Origin: a virus
Virus record (IMG/VR): IMGVR_UViG_3300037491_000133
Coordinates: 1 to 22,090 of that record
Length of the DNA stretch: 22,090 nucleotides
Strand: one strand, 5' to 3'
Part shown: positions 1-22,090 of the stretch, piece by piece
Layout of the letters: the number at the start of each line of letters is the position of its first letter
Numbering within the stretch: the stretch's first letter is position 1
Made by a program: the position numbers and the translations under genes
The notes under the pieces: model-generated
Seen by the model: the letters and a program-made list of their open reading frames with translations, nothing else
What the model was told of the DNA's origin: nothing
Databases searched by the model: none

Positions 1-411
1 TCAGGGACGAGCGGCCTGACCGGTTGCTCGGCGGGCAAGAAGATCGATCTCGACAAGCGCGCCGAGGGCAAGGCCGGTGACGCCGACGCAGGTCCGTGCC
101 GGCAGTCGTCCGGTTGCGAAATATGACGCGTAGACGGCGTTCATCGCGGCGTAATCGCGATCGAAATGCGTGAGGTAGACGCGGGCGAAGACAACGCAGT
201 CAAGGGAGCTGCCAGCGCCGGCCAGGACACGCTTCAGGTTCTCGATAACGCGCCGCGTTTGCGCCGCGATCCCGTCGGGCAACGGCCCCTTGTCGTCGTC
301 CGGCTGGGTCGGCATTTGGCCGGTGACAAACACCCAGCCGTCCACCGCGGTCGCATGGCTGAAAGGCCCGACCGGCGTCGGCGCCTCGGGGATCATCAAG
401 AATTCGATCAT
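1..411 (-). CDS. RidA (YjgF/YER057c/UK114) family protein
   Basis: The 136-aa product matches the Rid family, whose archetype RidA hydrolyses reactive enamine/imine intermediates from PLP enzymes in the cytoplasm. The C-terminal block LPARTCVGV followed by GALVEIDLLA is diagnostic. Counting from ATG 411, Arg106, Cys108 and Glu121 sit one residue from Arg105, Cys107 and Glu120 of canonical RidA, and Phe17 replaces the usual Tyr17. The catalytic Arg argues for a true deaminase-type Rid. I chose ATG 411 because it places GPFSHA about 15 residues in, as in the family. A GTG at 453 is possible but would put the 424-453 palindrome inside the gene, and ATG 396 is also possible. No strong Shine-Dalgarno is seen before any of them. 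The stop codon falls exactly at the window edge. It follows phage genes directly, so it is either a phage accessory gene or flanking host DNA. Confidence 0.9.
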   Translation of the reverse strand: MIEFLMIPEAPTPVGPFSHATAVDGWVFVTGQMPTQPDDDKGPLPDGIAAQTRRVIENLKRVLAGAGSSLDCVVFARVYLTHFDRDYAAMNAVYASYFATGRLPARTCVGVTGLALGALVEIDLLARRATGQAARP

Positions 412-423
412 CGCCACGCGCTC

Positions 424-453
424 GTGGATAAACCCGCGAGCCGGTTTATCCAC
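424..453. repeat. Perfect 11-bp inverted repeat before the RidA gene
   Basis: Arms GTGGATAAACC (424-434) and GGTTTATCCAC (443-453) are perfectly complementary around an 8-nt loop. It lies between the end of the upstream lipoprotein gene (476) and the RidA start (411). Neither side has a T-run, so it does not look like an intrinsic terminator. Each arm contains a TTATCCAC core resembling a DnaA box (TTATCCACA), facing opposite ways. It could be an operator, an mRNA hairpin, or coincidence. Confidence 0.6.
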
Positions 454-1103: not shown

Positions 1104-1418
1104 TTACTTGCGGTCCTGCTTCTGCACGATCTGCGTCCGCAGGTCGGCAATGGCGTCGATAATGCGCGCCAGCGCGGCGCGCATTTCTGCCTGAAAATCG
1201 CGCTCGTCAATCCGGCCTTGTTCGAGGGCTCGCTCCGCCGCGGCGATGCGCAACTCGTGCGAAGCGATCTGGACGTCGAGCTCAGCCCGCAGATTTTCGA
1301 TGTCCCCGCGCAGGCTGATGTAGCTGGTCACAGCACCGCCGCCCACAGTCAGCAGCAGCACGGCCGCCTGCATGACATGACCGAAGTTGATCTCGGGCGA
1401 GAACCGCGGCTTCAACAT
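1104..1418 (-). CDS. Membrane-anchored coiled-coil protein, i-spanin-like candidate
   Basis: The 104-aa product has one predicted membrane helix at about residues 15-36 (VMQAAVLLLTVGGGAVTSYI). A long charged alpha-helical segment follows at about 37-100, rich in Glu, Arg, Ala and Leu and likely to form a coiled coil. A single N-terminal anchor plus a periplasmic coiled coil is the architecture of inner-membrane spanins (Rz) and of some holin-associated phage proteins. The ATG at 1418 overlaps the upstream lipoprotein stop as TGATG, indicating translational coupling. The upstream frame to 1490 is discarded. The spanin role is inferred from shape and from the nearby lipoprotein genes. A holin or other membrane protein cannot be excluded. 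Confidence 0.7.
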   Translation of the reverse strand: MLKPRFSPEINFGHVMQAAVLLLTVGGGAVTSYISLRGDIENLRAELDVQIASHELRIAAAERALEQGRIDERDFQAEMRAALARIIDAIADLRTQIVQKQDRK

Positions 1419-1741
1419 CAAGGGACGAACGGAGCTGCCGGGGTGGCTTTCAGCAGCTCGGCCAGAACCCCAGCCCATACCGGTTGGCATTGCGTGCTTT
1501 GCAGAGCCATCTGCACCGCACGCTTCTCTTCGATCGCGACCAGTATACCGGGTTTATCCCCGACGCTGGAGATCGCGTTTCCGGTCGCCTCCAAAATCGG
1601 CCAGCAGGCCGCGCCCACCGGATCCCCTGCAGCTGTTGCGATCGTCGCTGCGTTGCCTGCATCCTCGGCGCTGAATTGGCCAACTTGGGCGCAGCCCGTC
1701 AACCACAATGCCAGCACGCTCGCCATTATCAATACCGACAT
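1418..1741 (-). CDS. Phage lipoprotein, 107 aa
   Basis: The N-terminus (MSVLIMASVLALWLTGCAQ) is a lipoprotein signal with lipobox LTGC, the modified Cys being residue 17. The mature part is Ala-rich with two further Cys (in AACWPIL and STQCQPVW) that could form a disulfide, and a Pro-rich end. I chose ATG 1741 because it begins the signal peptide and has GGAG 8 nt upstream. The longer frame to 1939 adds residues that would block secretion. The stop overlaps the next gene's start (TGATG). It is the first well-supported gene after the tail-tip gene. The function is unknown; cell-envelope or lysis-related roles are possible. Confidence 0.75.
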   Translation of the reverse strand: MSVLIMASVLALWLTGCAQVGQFSAEDAGNAATIATAAGDPVGAACWPILEATGNAISSVGDKPGILVAIEEKRAVQMALQSTQCQPVWAGVLAELLKATPAAPFVP

Positions 1742-2053
1742 CGACGCTACTCCGTCACACAAGCTGACGTTCCGGCAATCGACAAAATTCCAGAATCTAA
1801 ACATTGGTTTCATGCTCCATTGGTCCAGTGAAAGGTCTGCGCCGGGTCGGCGACAGTCAGTTTGGCTGGATGGTGTTTGGCCGGCGGGGTTCCGGGGTTC
1901 CGATGCGCGCGGCGGCGAAGCCTGTCGCGGTGTCGGCACACGCCGCGACCCACGGGATCAGCATTGCAGATCAGAAGAGAGGCGAGCCATGATCGCAAGT
2001 TGGTGCAGCCGCGCCCGCATCAACCCGATCGGTCGAATGATTTGACGTCGCGC
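1742..2053. other. 312-base stretch with no clear gene
   Basis: This gap separates the tail-tip stop from the lipoprotein start. No terminator hairpin with a T-tract and no promoter I would trust is visible. The best coding candidate is the short minus-strand frame at 1857-1964, listed separately. Minus-strand frames 1810-1998 and 1418-1939 also cross it, but their translations are Arg/Pro/His-rich and shadow-like. Confidence 0.5.
1857..1964 (-). CDS. Possible 35-aa ORF, low confidence
   Basis: Minus-strand ATG at 1964 opens a 35-codon frame with mostly G/C third positions. It encodes a short hydrophobic start (MLIPWVAACADTATGFAAAR) and a Pro/Asn-rich end. An in-frame TGA lies just upstream of the ATG, so the frame cannot be extended. 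There is no convincing Shine-Dalgarno. It is listed only because it is the most protein-like reading of the gap after the tail-tip gene. I do not recognise it. Confidence 0.3.
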   Translation of the reverse strand: MLIPWVAACADTATGFAAARIGTPEPRRPNTIQPN

Positions 2054-6008: not shown

Positions 6009-6625
6009 GTGCGCACCGAGATGAAAGTCAGTTTCTTCAGCTGCCACAATCGGAACATGAAGTTTTCGAAATCATAGCTGTCGTCGACGAACCGACAGCG
6101 AAACCAGTACGAGAAATCCGCTGCGACGACGATGCCAGTGGCCGGGGGGTTCGCGAAGGTCACCAACCCCGTCTCGGGGTCGACACTGTAGCTCGAAGCG
6201 CTTTGGCTGATGCCGTTGAAATAGACCGCTCCAACGGTGTTGGGGGCGGTAACCGGCTCAATAAACCCGCCGTTCGGCAACGCTGCTCCCATGGTCCGTT
6301 GCAGCTGAAAAACCGATGCGCTTGAGTCTCCGGTGCCGAGATATTGCCCCCGGATCTGGAAGTCGCTCGGGTCCTCGAACAGAAAGGTGCCGTAGGCGCC
6401 CTGGCAGGACAAGTAGAAGCCCATCAACGTGCGCAGCTCGTCGAAGCCGGCCCCGGGGTTGTCGCGTAAGAACGCGAAAACGAGCGTGAACTGCCATAGC
6501 GGGAACGGGTAATCGAGGGCCCTCAGCTCGCGGCCGGAAACAGCCCGCTGAATGCGGGTTTGAAACGTCGGAGTCTTGGTAACGCTCCAAGCGAGTCCCG
6601 GCAATTCGGGAAAAACCAACGCCAT
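6005..6625 (-). CDS. DUF2460 distal tail protein (RcGTA g12-like)
   Basis: The 206-aa product is a DUF2460 (TIGR02217) protein, close to the family's usual length. Recognisable parts are the N-terminal FPELPGLAWSVTKTPTFQTR, the central YPFPLWQFTLVFAFLRD, GAYGTFLFEDPSD, and the C-terminal DFSYWFRCRFVDDSYDFENF. In RcGTA this protein forms the distal tail ring between tube and hub. The ATG at 6625 overlaps the tape-measure stop as TGATG, and a GTG one codon earlier (6628) is also possible. A CGGAG motif lies a few bases upstream. The gene is coupled to DUF2163 downstream by ATGA. Confidence 0.93.
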   Translation of the reverse strand: MALVFPELPGLAWSVTKTPTFQTRIQRAVSGRELRALDYPFPLWQFTLVFAFLRDNPGAGFDELRTLMGFYLSCQGAYGTFLFEDPSDFQIRGQYLGTGDSSASVFQLQRTMGAALPNGGFIEPVTAPNTVGAVYFNGISQSASSYSVDPETGLVTFANPPATGIVVAADFSYWFRCRFVDDSYDFENFMFRLWQLKKLTFISVRT

Positions 6626-8136
6626 CACGAGCTCCGTAGTGCGGATCCGTTGCGCATCGCCCGGTTGATCGCACTGACCAAAAGGCTTCCGTTTGACTGG
6701 AAGAATTTCGCTACGGATTGGCTGTCCATCGCCGACACGTTAAACATGACGTTGGCCCCACCTCCCGCTCCCCCGCTGCCGGCTATCATTGTTTGCAGTC
6801 CTTGGCTGATGTCTGCCGGGAGCACCATCTCATTCGTGTGCAGCATCGCGAGTGAGGTCGAGGGAACCATCCAGCCGCCTTGGGCCGACGGCACGATCCC
6901 GCCGTGCTCGAAGCTGAACAATGATCCGATACCCTTAAACAGGCTGCTGAAAAGACCGCCTCCCGAAAACAAGCTGCCAAGACCCAAGGCTCCGAAAAGG
7001 CCGCCGGAGCCGAATAGCCCCTGCGAGATCCCGCCGCCGGCAATCGCCTCGCCGGCGCCGGTAACCCCACCCGAGAAATCTTGATCGGCGCTCCCGCCGG
7101 TGCCCCCAACCAGGCTTGCGCCGAGCGATTTTCCGAGGCTGCCAAGGATGCCGCCGACCGCGGAATTGACGAACTCGGCAATGATCGACTGCGCTAAGTT
7201 GGACAAAGCCTTTTGCACGGTGGTCGTGCCCATGATGATTCCGGTGATCGAGGTGTCCAACGCGCGCTGGATCGGCTGCAACAGGCTTTGCCATTGTTTT
7301 TGACTGTCTTGAACGGCTTGGGCGTCGAGCTTGTCCTTGTCGGCCAGGTATTTTTCGTAGGCAAGCTCCTCCTGCTCAGTCAGTTTTTCCTGCTGCTGGG
7401 CGTCGTCCGCGGCGGCAGCCAGCTTTTTTTCATAGAAATCCTGCTGGAGCGCCCACTCGGTATCGAGCGCATCCTTGAGTTGTGCAATCTCCTCGCTCGT
7501 CGAGATTTTGCCGAGCTCGGCCTCCTCCTCGATCGCCGCCTTCTTACGCGCATAGGCAGCGTCGGTGATTTTTTCGTCGGACGAGAGCGCGGCAAGCGTG
7601 TCCCGCTCGTTCTGTATGGCTAGCTGTTTTTCGAGCTGATAGACATTGCTCTCGACCGCGAGCTGTTCTTTCGACCCTGCTTCGGTTAATGCTTGCTTAT
7701 CCTGCCAAAACGCCAACTCCTCAGCCTTTGAGTCGCTAAAGAACGACTGCTCTTCCGCGAGTTGACTTTGCAGCTCGGCGCGCCAGGTTTGCAGCCGGTT
7801 AGCGGCACCGCCGCCGCCTTGCGTCCCGCTTTTTGCCTGCTGACTGACCGAAATCCCGGGCTGCTGGTTGGCGGCATTGCCGGATTGGCTGATCGCGCCG
7901 CCAACGGAACCGGCAAGTCCGGCGGTTCTCGCTTGCAGCGCGCTGATTGTCGATCCGATCTGCGCGGCGGCGGCTCCGATATGGGCCTGCGCCTGTTGCG
8001 CCGCGGTCCCGAGATCGGCGAAATGGACCTTCATCGCCCCGGTGGCCGCCTCTACTGCGTTGGCGGCCTCTTCCATTCCGGACTGAAGCTCGTCGGTCTG
8101 AGCAGAGATGGCAACGCTGGTTTCGATATCCGCCAC
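6625..8136 (-). CDS. Tail tape measure protein (short, lambda family)
   Basis: The 503-aa protein sits between the tail assembly chaperone pair and the distal tail gene, the fixed position of the tape measure. Residues about 115-300 are a long charged helical coiled-coil region with many Glu, Lys and Gln. The C-terminal part is Gly/Phe/Leu-rich and hydrophobic (TSITGIIMGTTTVQKAL, then repeated GLFGALGLG-type turns). It ends with the characteristic FEHGGIVPSAQGGWMVPS and TNEMVLPADIS segments. The start is GTG at 8136, chosen because AAGGAG lies about 6 nt upstream; no better start exists nearby. By the usual rule of about 0.15 nm tail per residue, this would give a tail of roughly 75 nm. It acts as length ruler and is ejected with the DNA. 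Confidence 0.9.
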   Translation of the reverse strand: MADIETSVAISAQTDELQSGMEEAANAVEAATGAMKVHFADLGTAAQQAQAHIGAAAAQIGSTISALQARTAGLAGSVGGAISQSGNAANQQPGISVSQQAKSGTQGGGGAANRLQTWRAELQSQLAEEQSFFSDSKAEELAFWQDKQALTEAGSKEQLAVESNVYQLEKQLAIQNERDTLAALSSDEKITDAAYARKKAAIEEEAELGKISTSEEIAQLKDALDTEWALQQDFYEKKLAAAADDAQQQEKLTEQEELAYEKYLADKDKLDAQAVQDSQKQWQSLLQPIQRALDTSITGIIMGTTTVQKALSNLAQSIIAEFVNSAVGGILGSLGKSLGASLVGGTGGSADQDFSGGVTGAGEAIAGGGISQGLFGSGGLFGALGLGSLFSGGGLFSSLFKGIGSLFSFEHGGIVPSAQGGWMVPSTSLAMLHTNEMVLPADISQGLQTMIAGSGGAGGGANVMFNVSAMDSQSVAKFFQSNGSLLVSAINRAMRNGSALRSS

Positions 8137-9957: not shown

Positions 9958-11055
9958 TTATTGACCTGGCCGGCCGCGAGGCGGTTCACCCGGCCGCGGC
10001 AGCGGATGTCTCGGCGGCTTTGGCGGATGGGGTGCGGGATGCGAGACGGGCGGTATTGGCGGCTGCGGATGGGGCGGCCGGTGATGCCGTTCGGGCGGAC
10101 GAAACGTCTGGGCGACAAAATTGTCGTCCTCGCGCCGCGACCGCAGATATTGGTCCCACTCATGCTCGAGCTCGGGCTTGTTGCCGGCAAATTCGAGCAC
10201 GCCCCACATGTTACGTTTTAGATCGGTAATCGGGTCGAAGCCGTGCCGCAGGAACATCTGCCAGCGATCCCAGTACTGGCGATTGACCTTGGCCCCGTGA
10301 AACCGATGCTCGATCGTCCCGGCCACATAGCCGATCCGGCCGTTGACGGCGTGCCTGGCGCGGTGTTGCCAGGCCTCCAGCATCGCCTTGTAGGTCGGCG
10401 AAACGCCGCTCGGAAACGAGCGGCTCGCCATGCCCAGCATCGCCACCGCCTGGTGATGGTCTGCGGCGCCCATCCCGCCATATTCGAAAAGCCCGCCGAT
10501 CAGGTTCAGCGTGTCGCGTCTGATCGCCCACATGTAGCCGGGGTGCGGGTAATGGTGCTGGCCGCCGCCGCCGATCCAGAATTTGTGAAAGTCCTGACCC
10601 TCGCCGACGACGATCGGGTTTCCATGCACGTATTGGTGACAGAACGAGCGCCAGTGATCCTGGTGCGAATCGGCTGGCCCGAGATCATAGCAATCGCGCC
10701 ACGGCTGCACGACCCGGTAATGCTGCAACGCCGCGATCGTTTCCGCCGCCCAGTCGCGGTGTCGCGGAAATACGTCGCTGTCGGACCAGCAGATGTATTT
10801 TGCTTCCGGGCGGCGCTGGATGCCGATGTTCAACAGGCATTCCTTGGTCCATGCCCAGCTATCGGCGCGCACGCCAATGTGGGTCACGGTCCCGGGGATT
10901 TCGCATTCGAAAGGCGCCTCGCCATAAGCGCACTCGATCACCGTCACATCGGCGCCGAGTTCGTGAAGGTGACGCGCCCAATCGACGTAATGCTGATGGG
11001 GCCGGCGCCAACGCAGTGGATTGAACCGCGCGGTAAAGACATGGAGTACGCTCAT
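9958..11055 (-). CDS. Glycosyltransferase (GT-A/GT2-like) with a Pro/His-rich C-terminal tail
   Basis: The 365-aa protein looks like a GT-A fold glycosyltransferase. It has an N-terminal Rossmann-like start (MSVLHVFTARFNPLRW), a DXD metal/nucleotide-sugar motif at Asp91-Ser-Asp93 in ICWSDSDVFP, and an acceptor-side block GGMGAADHHQAVAMLG near residues 192-206 that likely provides the catalytic Asp198. The last 47 or so residues (319-365) are almost only Pro, His and Arg and are probably disordered. ATG 11055 was chosen because it starts the fold; the longer frame to 11229 overlaps the previous gene. It is embedded between tail terminator and tail tube genes, so it may glycosylate a virion protein or modify the host surface. 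Substrate and sugar cannot be read from sequence. Confidence 0.85.
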   Translation of the reverse strand: MSVLHVFTARFNPLRWRRPHQHYVDWARHLHELGADVTVIECAYGEAPFECEIPGTVTHIGVRADSWAWTKECLLNIGIQRRPEAKYICWSDSDVFPRHRDWAAETIAALQHYRVVQPWRDCYDLGPADSHQDHWRSFCHQYVHGNPIVVGEGQDFHKFWIGGGGQHHYPHPGYMWAIRRDTLNLIGGLFEYGGMGAADHHQAVAMLGMASRSFPSGVSPTYKAMLEAWQHRARHAVNGRIGYVAGTIEHRFHGAKVNRQYWDRWQMFLRHGFDPITDLKRNMWGVLEFAGNKPELEHEWDQYLRSRREDDNFVAQTFRPPERHHRPPHPQPPIPPVSHPAPHPPKPPRHPLPRPGEPPRGRPGQ

Positions 11056-11068
11056 GAGCGGTGCGGCC

Positions 11069-11503
11069 TCACACACAAAGGATTTCGACGGGAACGATTG
11101 CGATCGCCTGGTCGCCGAGCACGCCTTCATCGGTCTCGATCTTGCCGGCGATATAGGCGTGCTGAACCATGTCCGGCAAACCGAGGTTCTGAATCCCGGA
11201 CGCCGGAGAGGGCGCCAACGCCTGCTCAAGGGAGTCGAGCAGCGGGTTCAAGATCGACGCCGGCGCTGCATAGGGATCGCTCGAATGCACGTAAATGTAA
11301 AAATCGGCGAAGAGCGTCCATACTGTCGGCGCGCCCAGTGCCTTGACGACCGCGTGCCCGCCCTTTTCGCTCATGAACAACGCGGGCTGCTCGACCGGCG
11401 CTACGTCGGACCAGTGCCGCAGCCGCCGGTTGGCGCTGGCAAAGCTCCAGGCGCGCGAACCAGCGGACCAAAGCGCGCCGTAAATCGCTTCACGGTCGAT
11501 CAT
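11069..11503 (-). CDS. Probable tail terminator protein (RcGTA g8 position)
   Basis: The 144-aa protein lies directly after the HK97-gp10-like gene and upstream of the tail tube, the usual place of the tail terminator (lambda gpU-like, DUF3168-like). Sequence features fit: an N-terminal helix (MIDREAIYGALWSAG), a strand and helix around ALFMSEKGGHAV, a strand WTLFADFYIYV, then ILNPLLDSLEQAL and strands to the end (AIAIVPVEILCV). ATG 11503 overlaps the previous stop as ATGA. It would form the ring closing the tail tube and joining it to the head. The call rests on position and fold impression; similarity is not strong enough to name a family firmly. Confidence 0.65.
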   Translation of the reverse strand: MIDREAIYGALWSAGSRAWSFASANRRLRHWSDVAPVEQPALFMSEKGGHAVVKALGAPTVWTLFADFYIYVHSSDPYAAPASILNPLLDSLEQALAPSPASGIQNLGLPDMVQHAYIAGKIETDEGVLGDQAIAIVPVEILCV

Positions 11504-17131: not shown

Positions 17132-17509
17132 CTACACGGTTGACGGCGCGCAAAGCACGGTTGAGTAAAGCTTTAAAATCCGGCCGTCGCTGAGCGTCGC
17201 TCCCGCCTCGAGTATATACGTTGCACCGACTGCCGAGCCCGGCATCCCGCCGATCGTGGCAACCGAAAAAAAGCCTGTCTTGGTCTGTAGTGACCCGTCG
17301 AGCGGAGAGCGGAGCTGGATTATCGTCTCGGCCGAAGCCGCCAAAATTCTCGCTTGTGGCGTCGGGTCGATCGCGGTTTGAAACGGCGCGAGCGTGCAGG
17401 TCCAATTTGTCGACCGAATTGTCGCCGATCCCACATCGGCAGTGAAGTCGAAGGCGAAATTATCGATTTCGCCGGCCTCGATCGGGTCGAACGCCATCGG
17501 CAGTCGCAT
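17132..17509 (-). CDS. Small structural protein, possible fibre-tail adaptor
   Basis: The 125-aa protein (start MRLPMAFDPIEAGEIDNFAF) is strand-rich throughout (FTADVGSATIRSTNWTCTLA, AETIIQLRSP, GATYILEAGATLSDGRILKL). The pattern of a short beta protein with a DVGSATI/WTC block resembles small alphaproteobacterial phage proteins annotated as fibre-tail adaptors, but I cannot confirm this. I chose ATG 17509, which has CGGAG 9 nt upstream and starts 2 nt after the stop of the glycine-rich gene; ATG 17497 is an alternative. The long frame to 17920 is a shadow. Neighbours support a role in attaching the large glycine-rich protein to the virion. An 85-nt gap without clear signals separates it from the protease gene. 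Confidence 0.7.
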   Translation of the reverse strand: MRLPMAFDPIEAGEIDNFAFDFTADVGSATIRSTNWTCTLAPFQTAIDPTPQARILAASAETIIQLRSPLDGSLQTKTGFFSVATIGGMPGSAVGATYILEAGATLSDGRILKLYSTVLCAPSTV

Positions 17510-17511
17510 TT

Positions 17512-19395
17512 TCAGCTTCTCCGCAGGAGGCGAATTCGCCCTGGTGTCGCGAGCAATCGAACGCGGTTCGGCCCGTTTTGCACCGACACCAGCACAGCCG
17601 CGGGAACCCCGACGCTCTCCAGCGGGACTAGGGAATCGGCTACTACTGTGGTTCCACCTGACATCAGCTCGTATGGAAAACCGGCGTCGCGCAAAAGGCC
17701 GCCAACCGCTTCTGCGCAAGCCACGTCGTCCCGGCGAATGGTGCCGGACCATTCGAGCTGCCCGTCTTGGTTTGCGATGAGGACGGCAGTTGTCTCGATC
17801 TCTGAGCCAGAATCCCTCGCCAGCGCCGCGGCCCATTCGGCGGGTATCGCAGTGTCGCGCGCCACCAGCACCCCACCCGACCATTCGACCGAGGTCGGTC
17901 CGTCCAGCCCGGCTGTGCAAACAAACTCAACCCTTAATGCGGGGTCGGCCTGTACTGCCCTAAGCGCCTCCAATGGCGCTCCTCGATCGAGCACGACGCG
18001 ACCTCCGGTCTCGCCCGGCGCCCCGAGGTCACGCAGCACCCCGGCGGCCAGCTCAGCCGGCAGGTTCGGGTCGGCCGCAAGGCGCGCCAGCCCTTCGGCG
18101 CGCAGGCCGGGATTGGCGACTGTGCGCGCCATGATTTCGACCGGAAACAGATTGTCGCCGGCGACCGTGTTGCCGGAGGCGAGCCACTCGGCGGGGCCAA
18201 AGCCGTCGCGCCGTGGCGTCGCCAGAAACTCAACTGGGTAGCCGCCCGTAGCATAGCTGATCACGATCAGCCCTGCGGCCCCGTTGCCGCCACGTGCCGC
18301 GCCCGCTGTCGCAACATTGCCGGAACCGCCGCCGCCCGCGCCATAGAGGCCGCCGTCGCCGCCCTGACCGCCCGTGGTGGCTGTGCCGAGGCCGGAGCCG
18401 CCGCCGCCACCGCCGCCGCAGCCCCATATACCCCATTCCGAGCCGTTACCGCCGGCGCCGCCGGGCGAGGCAGTGGTCTCGCTGCCGACGCCGTCCATCA
18501 CCGCACCCGAGCCGCCGCCGCCGGTGCTCGCTGTCCCGGGGTTGCCTGGGACCGTGCTGTTGCTGCCGGCGAGTGCTGTCACATAGGCGCCGCCGCCGCT
18601 GCCGCCTGGCCCGTTGCCGCCGGAACCGGAGTGGTAGCCCGAGCCGAGCCCGCCGCCGACGCTCGAATTGGCGCCGGCGCCGCCGTTGTCGGCGCCGCCG
18701 CCACCGCCACCGCCGGGGTTGGTGCTTTCGCCCGCCGCCCCGCCGTTGCCCACGGGGCCGGCGGCCCCACCGCCGCCCGATCCGCCGTCCGAGCCCTGCG
18801 AATTATTGCCGCCCTGGCCGCCGGCGAAGGTCAGGCTCGCGGCCGAACCGCCGCCAGTACCCCCGGCGCCGCCGCCGCTATAAGGGCCGGAGAGCTGGTA
18901 GCCGGCCGCGCCGCCACCCCCACCAGCGGCATTGACGAGTGCGCTCGCAAAGCTGGCTCCGCCAAACCACGTGCCGCTGCCGGCGCTGCCGACCCCGGTC
19001 GAGTTGCTTCCCTGCCCCGCGGCGCCGCCGGCGCCACCATGGCCGATCCCGATGTTGACCGTTTGGCCCGGCGTCAACGCGAGATTGACCGCCTTCGCAT
19101 AGCCGCCGCCGCCACCACCCGCCGCTGGGCTATTGACGTAACCGGTGCCGCCGCCGCCGCCGTCGCCGACGCACTCGACCGTGTTGTTGGCGCTGTTCCA
19201 ATCGGCCGGGACCGTCCAGTTCGACCCCGATGTCAGAACGACGCGAGCCGTGCCCGCCGGCGCGGAACGCACCAGGCGCCCGAGAAGCTCGACCCCGAGG
19301 CGCGCGTCGACCGCGACAGAAGTGGTGCCGGCCCCCCCTGCGGCGGCAGCTGCCGTCGCGACCGTCGCCGGCGCCGGCGCGCCACCCCAGATCAT
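17512..19395 (-). CDS. Glycine-rich fibre/adhesin-like protein with 14-residue C-terminal repeats
   Basis: The 627-aa protein has three parts. Residues 1-50 are Ala-rich with one stretch (GVELLGRLVRSAPA) resembling the C-terminal repeats. Residues about 50-385 form a glycine-rich domain opened by NWTVPADWNSANNTVECVGDG and closed by GAAGLIVISYA, like the Gly-rich domains of phage tail fibres and adhesins, whose Gly runs can pack as polyglycine II helices. Residues 387-604 are 15 tandem copies of a 14-residue unit with consensus P-(V/A)-E-(W/F/L) and an Asp near position 11. ATG 19395 lies 12 nt after the previous stop with GAGGG upstream. A virion surface or receptor-binding role is likely but inferred; where it sits on the particle is unknown, and its gene is unusually upstream of the capsid genes. 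Confidence 0.8.
   Translation of the reverse strand: MIWGGAPAPATVATAAAAAGGAGTTSVAVDARLGVELLGRLVRSAPAGTARVVLTSGSNWTVPADWNSANNTVECVGDGGGGGTGYVNSPAAGGGGGGYAKAVNLALTPGQTVNIGIGHGGAGGAAGQGSNSTGVGSAGSGTWFGGASFASALVNAAGGGGGAAGYQLSGPYSGGGAGGTGGGSAASLTFAGGQGGNNSQGSDGGSGGGGAAGPVGNGGAAGESTNPGGGGGGGADNGGAGANSSVGGGLGSGYHSGSGGNGPGGSGGGAYVTALAGSNSTVPGNPGTASTGGGGSGAVMDGVGSETTASPGGAGGNGSEWGIWGCGGGGGGGSGLGTATTGGQGGDGGLYGAGGGGSGNVATAGAARGGNGAAGLIVISYATGGYPVEFLATPRRDGFGPAEWLASGNTVAGDNLFPVEIMARTVANPGLRAEGLARLAADPNLPAELAAGVLRDLGAPGETGGRVVLDRGAPLEALRAVQADPALRVEFVCTAGLDGPTSVEWSGGVLVARDTAIPAEWAAALARDSGSEIETTAVLIANQDGQLEWSGTIRRDDVACAEAVGGLLRDAGFPYELMSGGTTVVADSLVPLESVGVPAAVLVSVQNGPNRVRLLATPGRIRLLRRS
17584..18237 (-). 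repeat. Fifteen tandem 14-residue (42-nt) repeats in the glycine-rich protein
   Basis: A Glu recurs at residues 389, 403, 420, 434, 448, 462, 476, 490, 504, 520, 534, 548, 562, 576 and 593. Spacing is 14, except three steps lengthened by 2-3 residues. Units include PVEFLATPRRDGFG, RAEGLARLAADPNL, PAELAAGVLRDLGA, PLEALRAVQADPAL and PAEWAAALARDSGS. Asp or Asn occupies position 11 in most copies and moves to 13-14 in the longer ones. DNA copies are well diverged. Confidence 0.85.
18271..19167 (-). repeat. Low-complexity Gly-coding tract
   Basis: About 300 codons dominated by GGC/GGT/GGG glycine codons interspersed with Ala, Ser, Asn. On the plus strand it appears as GCCGCC-type runs and opens false Pro/Arg/Ala-rich frames. 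It encodes the Gly-rich domain of the fibre-like protein. Confidence 0.85.
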
Positions 19396-19407: not shown

Positions 19408-20223
19408 TCAGCCGACCAGGCCGTAGAGAAAGACGCCGACGCTGTTCGTGTCCGTGGTCTGGCACTGGGCGCGCGCGACGAGCCGCTTGCCGGCCGGGAT
19501 GTTGCACGGGAACCAGTCGGTGCCGCCGGGGCCAAAGCCGCCGGTCGCGAGCTGGGTCGCGAACTTGATGCCGAGCGACACCTCGTTGCCCGACGTGCCC
19601 ATGCCGAGCTCGAACATCGCGTTCATCGTGCCGAGCCCGACGCCGAGGTCGTCGAGCCGCATCATCAGCGCCGCCAGCCGGTTTGGGGTCGAGGCCATGA
19701 CCTGCGTCCACCCGGTCAAGGTCGAGCCGTTGAGCGTGATCGTGTTGGTCGGGTCGCTGCCGGTGAGGTCGGTCGCGCAAATCTGCTTTGAGAAGCCGGC
19801 GAGCATGCGCCCGTCGCCGGCATAGCCGAGGGTCGACACCGACAAGGTGCCGCCGCCGGCCGAGGACTGGCAGCGGGCATAGAGGGTGGCACCCTTCTTG
19901 ACCTTGACCGGGATGTAGACGAACTGCCGGTCGGCGGTGTAGCTGCCCGCCGCCTGCGGGTCGAAAAACAGGTTCGCGGCGACGACTTCCTGGGCTGTGT
20001 TGTCGGCGGCGATGTCGGTCAGGTACCTCACGGTGCCTCCGCCCGAATTGCCGGTGATCGCTACATAAAACCCGTCATATTCGAACCCGGTGGCCCCGCC
20101 GAGCGCGATATAGCTGCCCTTGGTGTTGGCGGTGCCGCTCGCCGTGACGGACGTGCCGATGCCGGACGAGAGCCCTTGGGTTTCATAGCGCGCCGAGGCG
20201 GCGAGCGGCTGTCCGAAGCCCAT
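19408..20223 (-). CDS. Two-domain beta-rich structural protein
   Basis: I do not recognise a named family. The 271-aa product appears to hold two related beta-sandwich halves. The first (about 30-136) ends IPVKVKKGATLYARCQSS then LSVSTLGYAG; the second (about 175-271) ends CNIPAGKRLVARAQCQTT then VGVFLYGLVG. Both place a Lys/Gly turn, an AR.QC strand and a final aromatic-Gly strand at the same place. ATG 20223 lies 3 nt after the previous stop. It lies between a 122-aa structural gene and the glycine-rich gene and probably forms part of the same surface appendage or decoration. Confidence 0.75.
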   Translation of the reverse strand: MGFGQPLAASARYETQGLSSGIGTSVTASGTANTKGSYIALGGATGFEYDGFYVAITGNSGGGTVRYLTDIAADNTAQEVVAANLFFDPQAAGSYTADRQFVYIPVKVKKGATLYARCQSSAGGGTLSVSTLGYAGDGRMLAGFSKQICATDLTGSDPTNTITLNGSTLTGWTQVMASTPNRLAALMMRLDDLGVGLGTMNAMFELGMGTSGNEVSLGIKFATQLATGGFGPGGTDWFPCNIPAGKRLVARAQCQTTDTNSVGVFLYGLVG

Positions 20224-20226
20224 CCG

Positions 20227-20595
20227 TCACGTCCCGTAGAGGTTGTAGACCGCCCACTGGTAGGCGCGAGCGGTGCCGGCGGTCTGGTTGATCGTGACTT
20301 TCCAGGCGTTGACTGCCGGGACCGCCGGCAATGGCGGGCACGGGTCGCCCTGGGCATTGGCGAACGCCATGTAGGCCTGCTGCACCAGCGACGCGCTTGA
20401 ATTCGCCTGGTTGTAGTAGCGCACCTCGAGCACGTCGCCGTCGGCCATGTTCGAGAGGTCGATCTGCAGCTGAAAGCTGCCGCCCTGGGAGAGGCTCGTC
20501 GCGGAGGCGAGCGTCGTCTCGGTGCCGACAACAGGCGTCGTGCTGCCGCTCGCCGGGTTCGGCGACAAGAGAGTAGTGATGATGGGCGCGGTCAT
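20227..20595 (-). CDS. Hypothetical beta-rich structural protein, 122 aa
   Basis: I do not recognise this protein. The N-terminal third is Ser/Thr/Pro-rich (LLSPNPASGSTTPVVGTETT). Strands follow (SFQLQIDLSNMADGDVLEVR) and the end is WKVTINQTAGTARAYQWAVY. The composition and the 'ADGDVLEVRYY' pattern resemble small virion beta-sandwich proteins. ATG 20595 has only a weak GGACGG upstream. It is followed by the two-domain beta protein after 3 nt. A capsid-decoration or appendage role is an inference from company. Confidence 0.72.
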   Translation of the reverse strand: MTAPIITTLLSPNPASGSTTPVVGTETTLASATSLSQGGSFQLQIDLSNMADGDVLEVRYYNQANSSASLVQQAYMAFANAQGDPCPPLPAVPAVNAWKVTINQTAGTARAYQWAVYNLYGT

Positions 20596-20675: not shown

Positions 20676-20759
20676 CTATTTTGGGCATAGCAGCATCAGG
20701 ACGATGACAAGCGCGCCGCCGATGCAGAACAATTGCAGCGCAAGGGCGCTGCCGCTCAC
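20676..20759 (-). CDS. Tiny membrane peptide, 27 aa
   Basis: A GTG at 20759 overlaps the stop of the upstream structural gene as GTGA, the same coupling used elsewhere in this block. The 27-codon frame encodes a short polar start (MSGSAL) followed by a continuous hydrophobic helix (FCIGGALVIVLMLL) and a Cys-Pro-Lys end, so it would span the membrane once. It is too short for standard gene calling. Its role is unknown; a holin-like or host-membrane function is possible but only guesswork. The following 80 nt (20596-20675) contain only two very short frames that I do not call. Confidence 0.55.
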   Translation of the reverse strand: MSGSALALQLFCIGGALVIVLMLLCPK

Positions 20760-22090
20760 GTCGTCGTCCCCTGAGTGCGCAAATCGGCCGAGCCCTTGTA
20801 CGCGGCGGTGCCGGCTGGCAGGGTCAGGCGCAGCCACGCGCCTTGGGCACCGGCGGCGTTGGGGGCCGCTCCCGATGGCAGGTTGCCCGTGCCCGGCACG
20901 CTGATAAAAGCCGGCTGCGTGACAAACGAGCCCGAGCCCATCGGCACGAACGACGAGGCTTGCTGGCGCGGATTGCAGGTATTGGTGTCGTTGAGCGCGG
21001 TGGTCAAGGCCGCGTCGAGCAATGCGCCAGACGGCAGGGTCGGGCTCTCGCTGGCAATCTCGACCTGCGCCGCGGTCAACGCCGTCGCGGTGTTGTTATT
21101 GACGACAAACACCTTTTCGAAAAAATACCGGGCCGATCCGGTCGGCACGTCCGCCGCGGAGGTCGCAAAGCTGCGCACTACCGAGGTGACCGGGTTGGGG
21201 TCTCCATAAGTGGTGCCGGAGCTGGCAAAGCCGGTCTCGAACAGCATACCCTGAAAAACGCTGTATGTTGTTGAGCTGGACGGGACGATCGACCAGTCGC
21301 GGTTGATCGCGACGACATCGGTGCCGTAGCCCGAGGTCGCGGTGATCATGCGCAGCTGGTACTGGGCGCCGCTCGGCGTGTTGTTGGTGATCTGGATGAT
21401 CATTCCGCCCGACACGCTGGCGCCGTCGCCCGCTTGCAATTTCATCAGCGGCGGGGTCGTGCCGCTATGATTGGCTGCGCCCGACTGTGCGGTGTGCCCA
21501 GAGATGACGGCGGTGTTGGCGATCGCCGCGACGTCGCCGACCGGCATCAGTTTGACCGCGGCACCCGAGCTGTGGACGACGCCCTGCGGTGCCGGGCCGG
21601 AGACGCCCCGCGTCACCGTCCAGGTTGTGGTTCCCTGACCGCCGGTGACGAGCATGATTTCGAAGCTGGCGCCGGCATCGACCGCAATGTAGTAATTGCC
21701 CGACCCCGGAAAACCCGAGGCCGAGGCGACCGGCAGGCTTGTCGCGGAGCTCGTGATGCCGCCGGCGCCGACCGTTGTGCTGGTGCCGCTCGGGTCGCCG
21801 AGCGGGCCGTTTGGCGAAGCGCCGGAGACCACGCCGTAGAGCAGCCGCTCGAAGCTTTGCAAGCCGGTGACCGGGGTGGTGCCGTTCAGGGTGACGGCGG
21901 CGGGGGTTTGGATCGCGCCGGTCGAGTCGCGGCCGGCAACCTGAATCTTAACCCCGGTGTCGACCGCTGAAGACGAGACAAAGTTGATCGTTCCGGCCGG
22001 AGTGACGTCGTAAAAGGCGACGCGGCGCGAAAAGTCGACCGCACCACCGACGGTGACGCCGTCGGCCTCGGGCATATTGGCCGCCCCGTA
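20756..22090 (-). CDS. Structural protein, 5'-truncated by the window edge
   Basis: The frame stays open to the right edge (444 residues visible). An ATG at 22075 exists but lacks a good Shine-Dalgarno, and the five codons before it continue plausibly (YGAAN), so the true start is probably outside. The visible part begins MPEADGVTVGGAVDFSRRVA, then beta-rich segments. It includes a module with ITSSATSLPVASASGFPGSG and TTTWTVTRGVSG (about residues 105-160 from that Met) that recurs in phage structural proteins as a short adhesive or linker fold. The C-terminal half is Ser/Thr/Ala-rich beta structure. It is probably a virion surface component; no enzymatic motif is visible. Confidence 0.78.
   Translation of the reverse strand, partial: YGAANMPEADGVTVGGAVDFSRRVAFYDVTPAGTINFVSSSAVDTGVKIQVAGRDSTGAIQTPAAVTLNGTTPVTGLQSFERLLYGVVSGASPNGPLGDPSGTSTTVGAGGITSSATSLPVASASGFPGSGNYYIAVDAGASFEIMLVTGGQGTTTWTVTRGVSGPAPQGVVHSSGAAVKLMPVGDVAAIANTAVISGHTAQSGAANHSGTTPPLMKLQAGDGASVSGGMIIQITNNTPSGAQYQLRMITATSGYGTDVVAINRDWSIVPSSSTTYSVFQGMLFETGFASSGTTYGDPNPVTSVVRSFATSAADVPTGSARYFFEKVFVVNNNTATALTAAQVEIASESPTLPSGALLDAALTTALNDTNTCNPRQQASSFVPMGSGSFVTQPAFISVPGTGNLPSGAAPNAAGAQGAWLRLTLPAGTAAYKGSADLRTQGTTT

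Follow-up and report, generated by a model that had tools for sequence, protein, structure and literature searches.

A 14-residue repeat array that looks like a holder for exchangeable adhesin domains in uncultured phages of soil Alphaproteobacteria

A 14-residue repeat with a conserved corner

What role could a protein that joins a Gly-rich, adhesin-like domain to an array of short regular repeats play when its gene lies among phage head genes? The question is raised by a 627-aa protein encoded on the minus strand (17512..19395, ATG start at 19395) of the viral record IMGVR_UViG_3300037491_000133, of which a stretch of 22,090 nucleotides was analysed (hereafter the window). The initial annotation, made from the sequence alone, described a Glu residue recurring with a strict 14-residue step over 15 units. 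Our analysis bears this out: the unit Glu residues occupy positions 389, 403, 420, 434, 448, 462, 476, 490, 504, 520, 534, 548, 562, 576 and 593, so that of the 14 steps, 11 measure exactly 14 residues, one 16 and two 17 (unit 11 holds one additional Glu, 532). Residue identity at lag 14 in the 627-aa protein is 43 versus 17.7 expected, a value reached by none of 5000 shuffles; identity at lag 28 is likewise above expectation (31 versus 16.5, P 0.0004), and the chain score exceeds that of shuffled versions of the array by 36 SD. These shuffle tests rule out chance or composition as the source of the period. The late Asp was said to survive in the three longer steps, and indeed the position six residues before Glu (E-6) is Asp (12) or Asn (2) at all 14 junctions, those of the 16- and 17-residue units included. 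The array extends over 17578..18240 (minus strand, residues 386–606), slightly more than the 17584-18237 originally proposed, and is followed by a basic C-terminal tail, NGPNRVRLLATPGRIRLLRRS (17515..17577, minus strand, residues 607–627). A 42-bp tandem repeat was sought in the DNA of the array and none was found, which implies that the units are well diverged at the DNA level.

Comparison with relatives (see below) yields the unit consensus (A/L/V)-P-(V/T/A/L)-E-(S/F/W/L)-L-A-x-x-R-x-D-(A/G)-(G/P/S). An acidic residue or Asn stands at E-6 in 174/216 units of 14 residues, 22/25 of 16, 23/30 of 17 and 19/34 of 18. The D-x5-E corner is thus usually kept, because the additional residues of long units fall between Glu and Asp. 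The final unit ahead of the tail is usually long, and a short basic tail of the RxRLL type forms the C-terminus of all 36 full-length array proteins. Short array proteins with 3–4 units (L027 5030-5365, L048 4763-5098 and L052 4954-5379) begin with TADGRVRR-type basic motifs, present repeatedly and similar to this tail. Locus L069 carries two adjacent array ORFs (6411-6623 and 6627-7298), the array running upstream past the stop codon in the same frame.

Distribution and searches

Used as a query against viral contigs, the window array matched the same phage only (loci L001 and L002 overlap the window with 99.97% identity over 9171 bp), and searches of isolate phages and plasmids retrieved no arrays. 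Relatives were therefore obtained mostly via the neighbouring capsid gene: the major capsid protein retrieved 80 syntenic viral loci and 13 genome contigs, the latter mostly from Alphaproteobacteria MAGs, with Methylobacterium, Caulobacteraceae and one Binataceae MAG also represented. Arrays in these loci were located by tblastn and a profile of four units. This gave 36 full-length array proteins with 3 to 29 units from phages of Alphaproteobacteria and one Binataceae MAG; as a group, the carriers are uncultured phages of soil Alphaproteobacteria. An order scan found 3 of 43, and wide genome scans returned only the already known contig G002, a weak negative given that few candidates were scored per genome. 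The array of locus L089 as a query against viral contigs gave no match. Two candidates were discarded: a match of the consensus query in Aeromonas phage BUCT552 is antisense to an annotated gene and attributable to chance, and an array match in locus L101 scored no higher than shuffles. No family in Pfam, PHROGs, NCBIfam or PDB convincingly covers the array; with no match there or in the searched isolate phages and plasmids, the repeat family is an undescribed one, which adds to phage surface biology.

Exchangeable N-terminal domains and unit-wise evolution

The Gly-rich domain (18244..19251, minus strand, residues 49–384) is preceded by the stretch TTSVAVDARLGVELLGRLVRSAPAG (19252..19326, minus strand, residues 24–48). 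The initial annotation had pointed to an array-like segment near residue 34, as if the Gly-rich domain had been inserted into a repeat array, and both suggestions hold. The stretch has the D-x5-E corner (D30, E36) and fits the array start TxVxAD(A/S)xxxPxE of relatives, while the N-terminal MIWGGAPA..GG is common to the window protein and that of L003, whose array is without the Gly-rich domain. In the window and in L013 a single array unit precedes the domain, whereas the arrays of L003 and L008 begin without it. A TNF-like sandwich has its two ends close together, so insertion into the array would be feasible. The label "adhesin-like" is also borne out: the sole PDB sequence match is the TNF-like/Gly-rich receptor domain of the Pam3 tail fibre, a weak match that yet covers non-Gly columns (E 0.001 for the whole protein or profile A6 as query, and 0.25 when the domain was searched by itself). 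The match to PF21722 (E 0.0044) falls below the cut-off of that family.

N-terminal parts of the array proteins fall into a Gly-rich cluster (17 members and L066), a five-member type represented by L026, the pair L018/L089, the first domain of L013, and a laminin-G-like domain in L023 (PF13385, E 5e-8); in the remaining proteins the N-terminal domain is absent or lost to the contig end. Array and tail are the constant part, and the N-terminal part, of at least five unrelated types or missing, has been exchanged.

Variation in copy number among relatives, which the initial annotation had proposed to look for with a profile of the unit, was found in the range of 3–29 units and proceeds by whole units. 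Between relatives at least 54% identical, internal indels are exclusively 14, 42 or 56 residues long; in more distant pairs, indels of 14 and 28 occur among many other lengths. Where computable, dN/dS of the array between relatives is 0.29–0.54. In closer pairs dS is about 1 for the cargo, a value possibly inflated by misalignment in Gly-rich domains, versus 0.2–0.35 for the array. In the pairs measured, purifying selection acts on the arrays and divergence of the cargo is usually much greater, which is what an exchange of cargo would produce.

Genomic context

The operon order is portal, a 439-aa protein, a variable slot, the array protein, a 125-aa protein, protease and major capsid protein. 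In many loci the array gene is packed tightly with head genes, with gaps of a few bases. The 125-aa gene (17132..17509, minus strand), directly downstream in the window with a 2-nt gap, served as the locus marker; its product is 62–82% identical in the relatives listed. Of the 51 loci in which enough sequence was available, 47 have an array gene next to it, though some of these had been fetched by array queries; among loci fetched by the capsid gene only, we read from the table 34 of 38, redundancy included. Loci L009 and L083 were scored negative, yet they retain a degenerate array and tail. In L092 and L094, distant members of the same capsid family, the portal is close to the protease with no array between them, and L089 carries the array gene between terminase and portal; the array cassette is therefore an addition that is able to move.

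A modular adhesin as the preferred explanation

We propose, with a probability of about one half, that the protein is a modular adhesin attached to the virion. The 14-residue array and basic tail, as the constant part, would fix the protein to the particle, with either the tail or the array making the contact; the number of units would set the reach of the protein; and the exchangeable N-terminal or inserted domain, here TNF-like/Gly-rich, would touch the host surface. The proposal builds on the array itself, its unit-wise change in copy number, the exchange of cargo, the constant tail and the place in the head operon between portal and protease, which together give the protein the appearance of a holder, so far undescribed, into which phages fit exchangeable adhesins. 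From these features we infer its presence in the virion, attachment by tail or array, receptor binding and a rigid array. Likenesses of the cargo to the Pam3 tail fibre, which has receptor-recognising Gly-rich domains (PMC9608196), and to laminin G also count in its favour, and phages are known to carry a class of head fibres and decoration proteins that help in attachment to the host (PMC7602432). What speaks against it is the location in the head genes, as a receptor-binding protein would more usually be encoded beside the tail tip.

The Gly-rich adhesins Pam3 gp24 and S16 gp38 share with the array protein the TNF-like/Gly-rich receptor domain and a GIIVxY-type closing strand. In Pam3 gp24, however, an N-terminal helical domain docks to the baseplate and the Gly-rich domain forms the distal tip, whereas here the Gly-rich domain is N-terminal or comes after unit 1, with the C-terminal array as the constant part; the array gene, moreover, lies between portal and head protease and not among tail or baseplate genes as for gp24 and gp38. 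Like the array protein, the head fibres and decoration proteins phi29 gp8.5, T4 Hoc and T5 pb10 are encoded in the head module, and by this analogy an accessory role in adhesion is plausible. We found no sequence relation to these proteins and no Ig or coiled-coil signature. If the adhesin reading is correct, a constant array with exchangeable binding domains would be a natural record of adhesin swapping and of whole-unit tuning of reach, and its locus marks where host-range determinants of uncultured soil phages could be sought.

Shape of the array

The initial annotation read the repeat as a solenoid or fibre shaft; the array is genuine and its shape is unproven. AlphaFold2 gave a pLDDT of 48 for the window array (27 sequences) and 64 for that of L043, which has 12 clean units, with pTM of 0.25 and 0.29. 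The models tend towards a single short helix in each unit, spaced by about 14 residues in parts, with packing that is not confident, and Foldseek searches with them returned nothing meaningful (best E 2.3). Tentatively, the D-x5-E unit might be a new structural repeat, perhaps with one short helix per turn, forming an adjustable rod for unrelated adhesin domains; its C-terminal anchor would be the reverse of ordinary tail fibres. We regard this as possible, if doubtful.

Low confidence in both runs would also suit an extended flexible tether without a solenoid fold, on which beads with PxEW-type motifs each bind a repeated partner, e.g. the capsid lattice. Outside E, D, P and a small residue the units are strongly diverged; this, together with the wide span of unit numbers, points the same way. 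However, the largely fixed D-x5-E corner, the hydrophobic pattern, the confinement of additional residues to one segment and dN/dS of 0.3–0.5 look like structural constraint, and we consider such a tether rather unlikely. Monomer prediction would miss a trimeric beta-structure, be it a YadA-head-like beta-roll of 14-residue turns or a triple beta-spiral. Fibres are often trimers, the unit length is 14, and long units appear beta-rich by eye (EWxGAxxVxxD); the YadA-head repeat (PF05658) likewise gives an adhesin a 14-residue period. Yet 27 arrays searched against Pfam at E 0.1 yielded no relevant repeat, YadA-head and adenovirus-shaft included, the AlphaFold models lean helical, and the C-terminus of the array protein is a short basic tail, not an autotransporter domain. 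A trimeric beta-structure is accordingly unlikely.

The variable slot and other neighbours

In the window, the slot upstream of the array gene holds a 271-aa gene (19408..20223, minus strand) present in only two relatives and a 122-aa gene (20227..20595, minus strand) present in only one; its other edge is the conserved 439-aa gene (20756..22075, minus strand), found in 28 relatives. In nine relatives (L008, L010, L018, L020, L027, L048, L052, L069 and L089), genes with strong Sec-like signal peptides, called by a simple rule-based prediction, lie beside the array gene in the head-gene operon; one is Tat-like (L010), and those of L027 and L048 are alpha/beta-hydrolase-like. Such neighbours would fit export better than virion assembly, which counts against the modular adhesin. 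With these genes and the highly variable content of the slot in its favour, a non-virion protein, i.e. a prophage-encoded lysogenic-conversion or released adhesin, is nevertheless distinctly improbable, as the array proteins inspected (window, L013 and L059) have no signal peptide at their start and the array gene is conserved and tightly packed with head genes.

Elsewhere in the window, a lipoprotein-like gene follows the tail-tip gene (1418-1939, minus strand); its product is 38% identical to a lipoprotein encoded between the array and 125-aa genes in other loci, hence this gene changes place. Amid the head and tail genes, a 423-aa ORF (9958-11229, minus strand) that looks like a glycosyltransferase (WSDSDVF) and ends in a proline-rich stretch had no match in Pfam or PHROG. 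At the end of the record, positions 1-453 (minus strand) encode a member of the RidA/L-PSP family (PF01042, E 2e-31), either a host gene or phage cargo.
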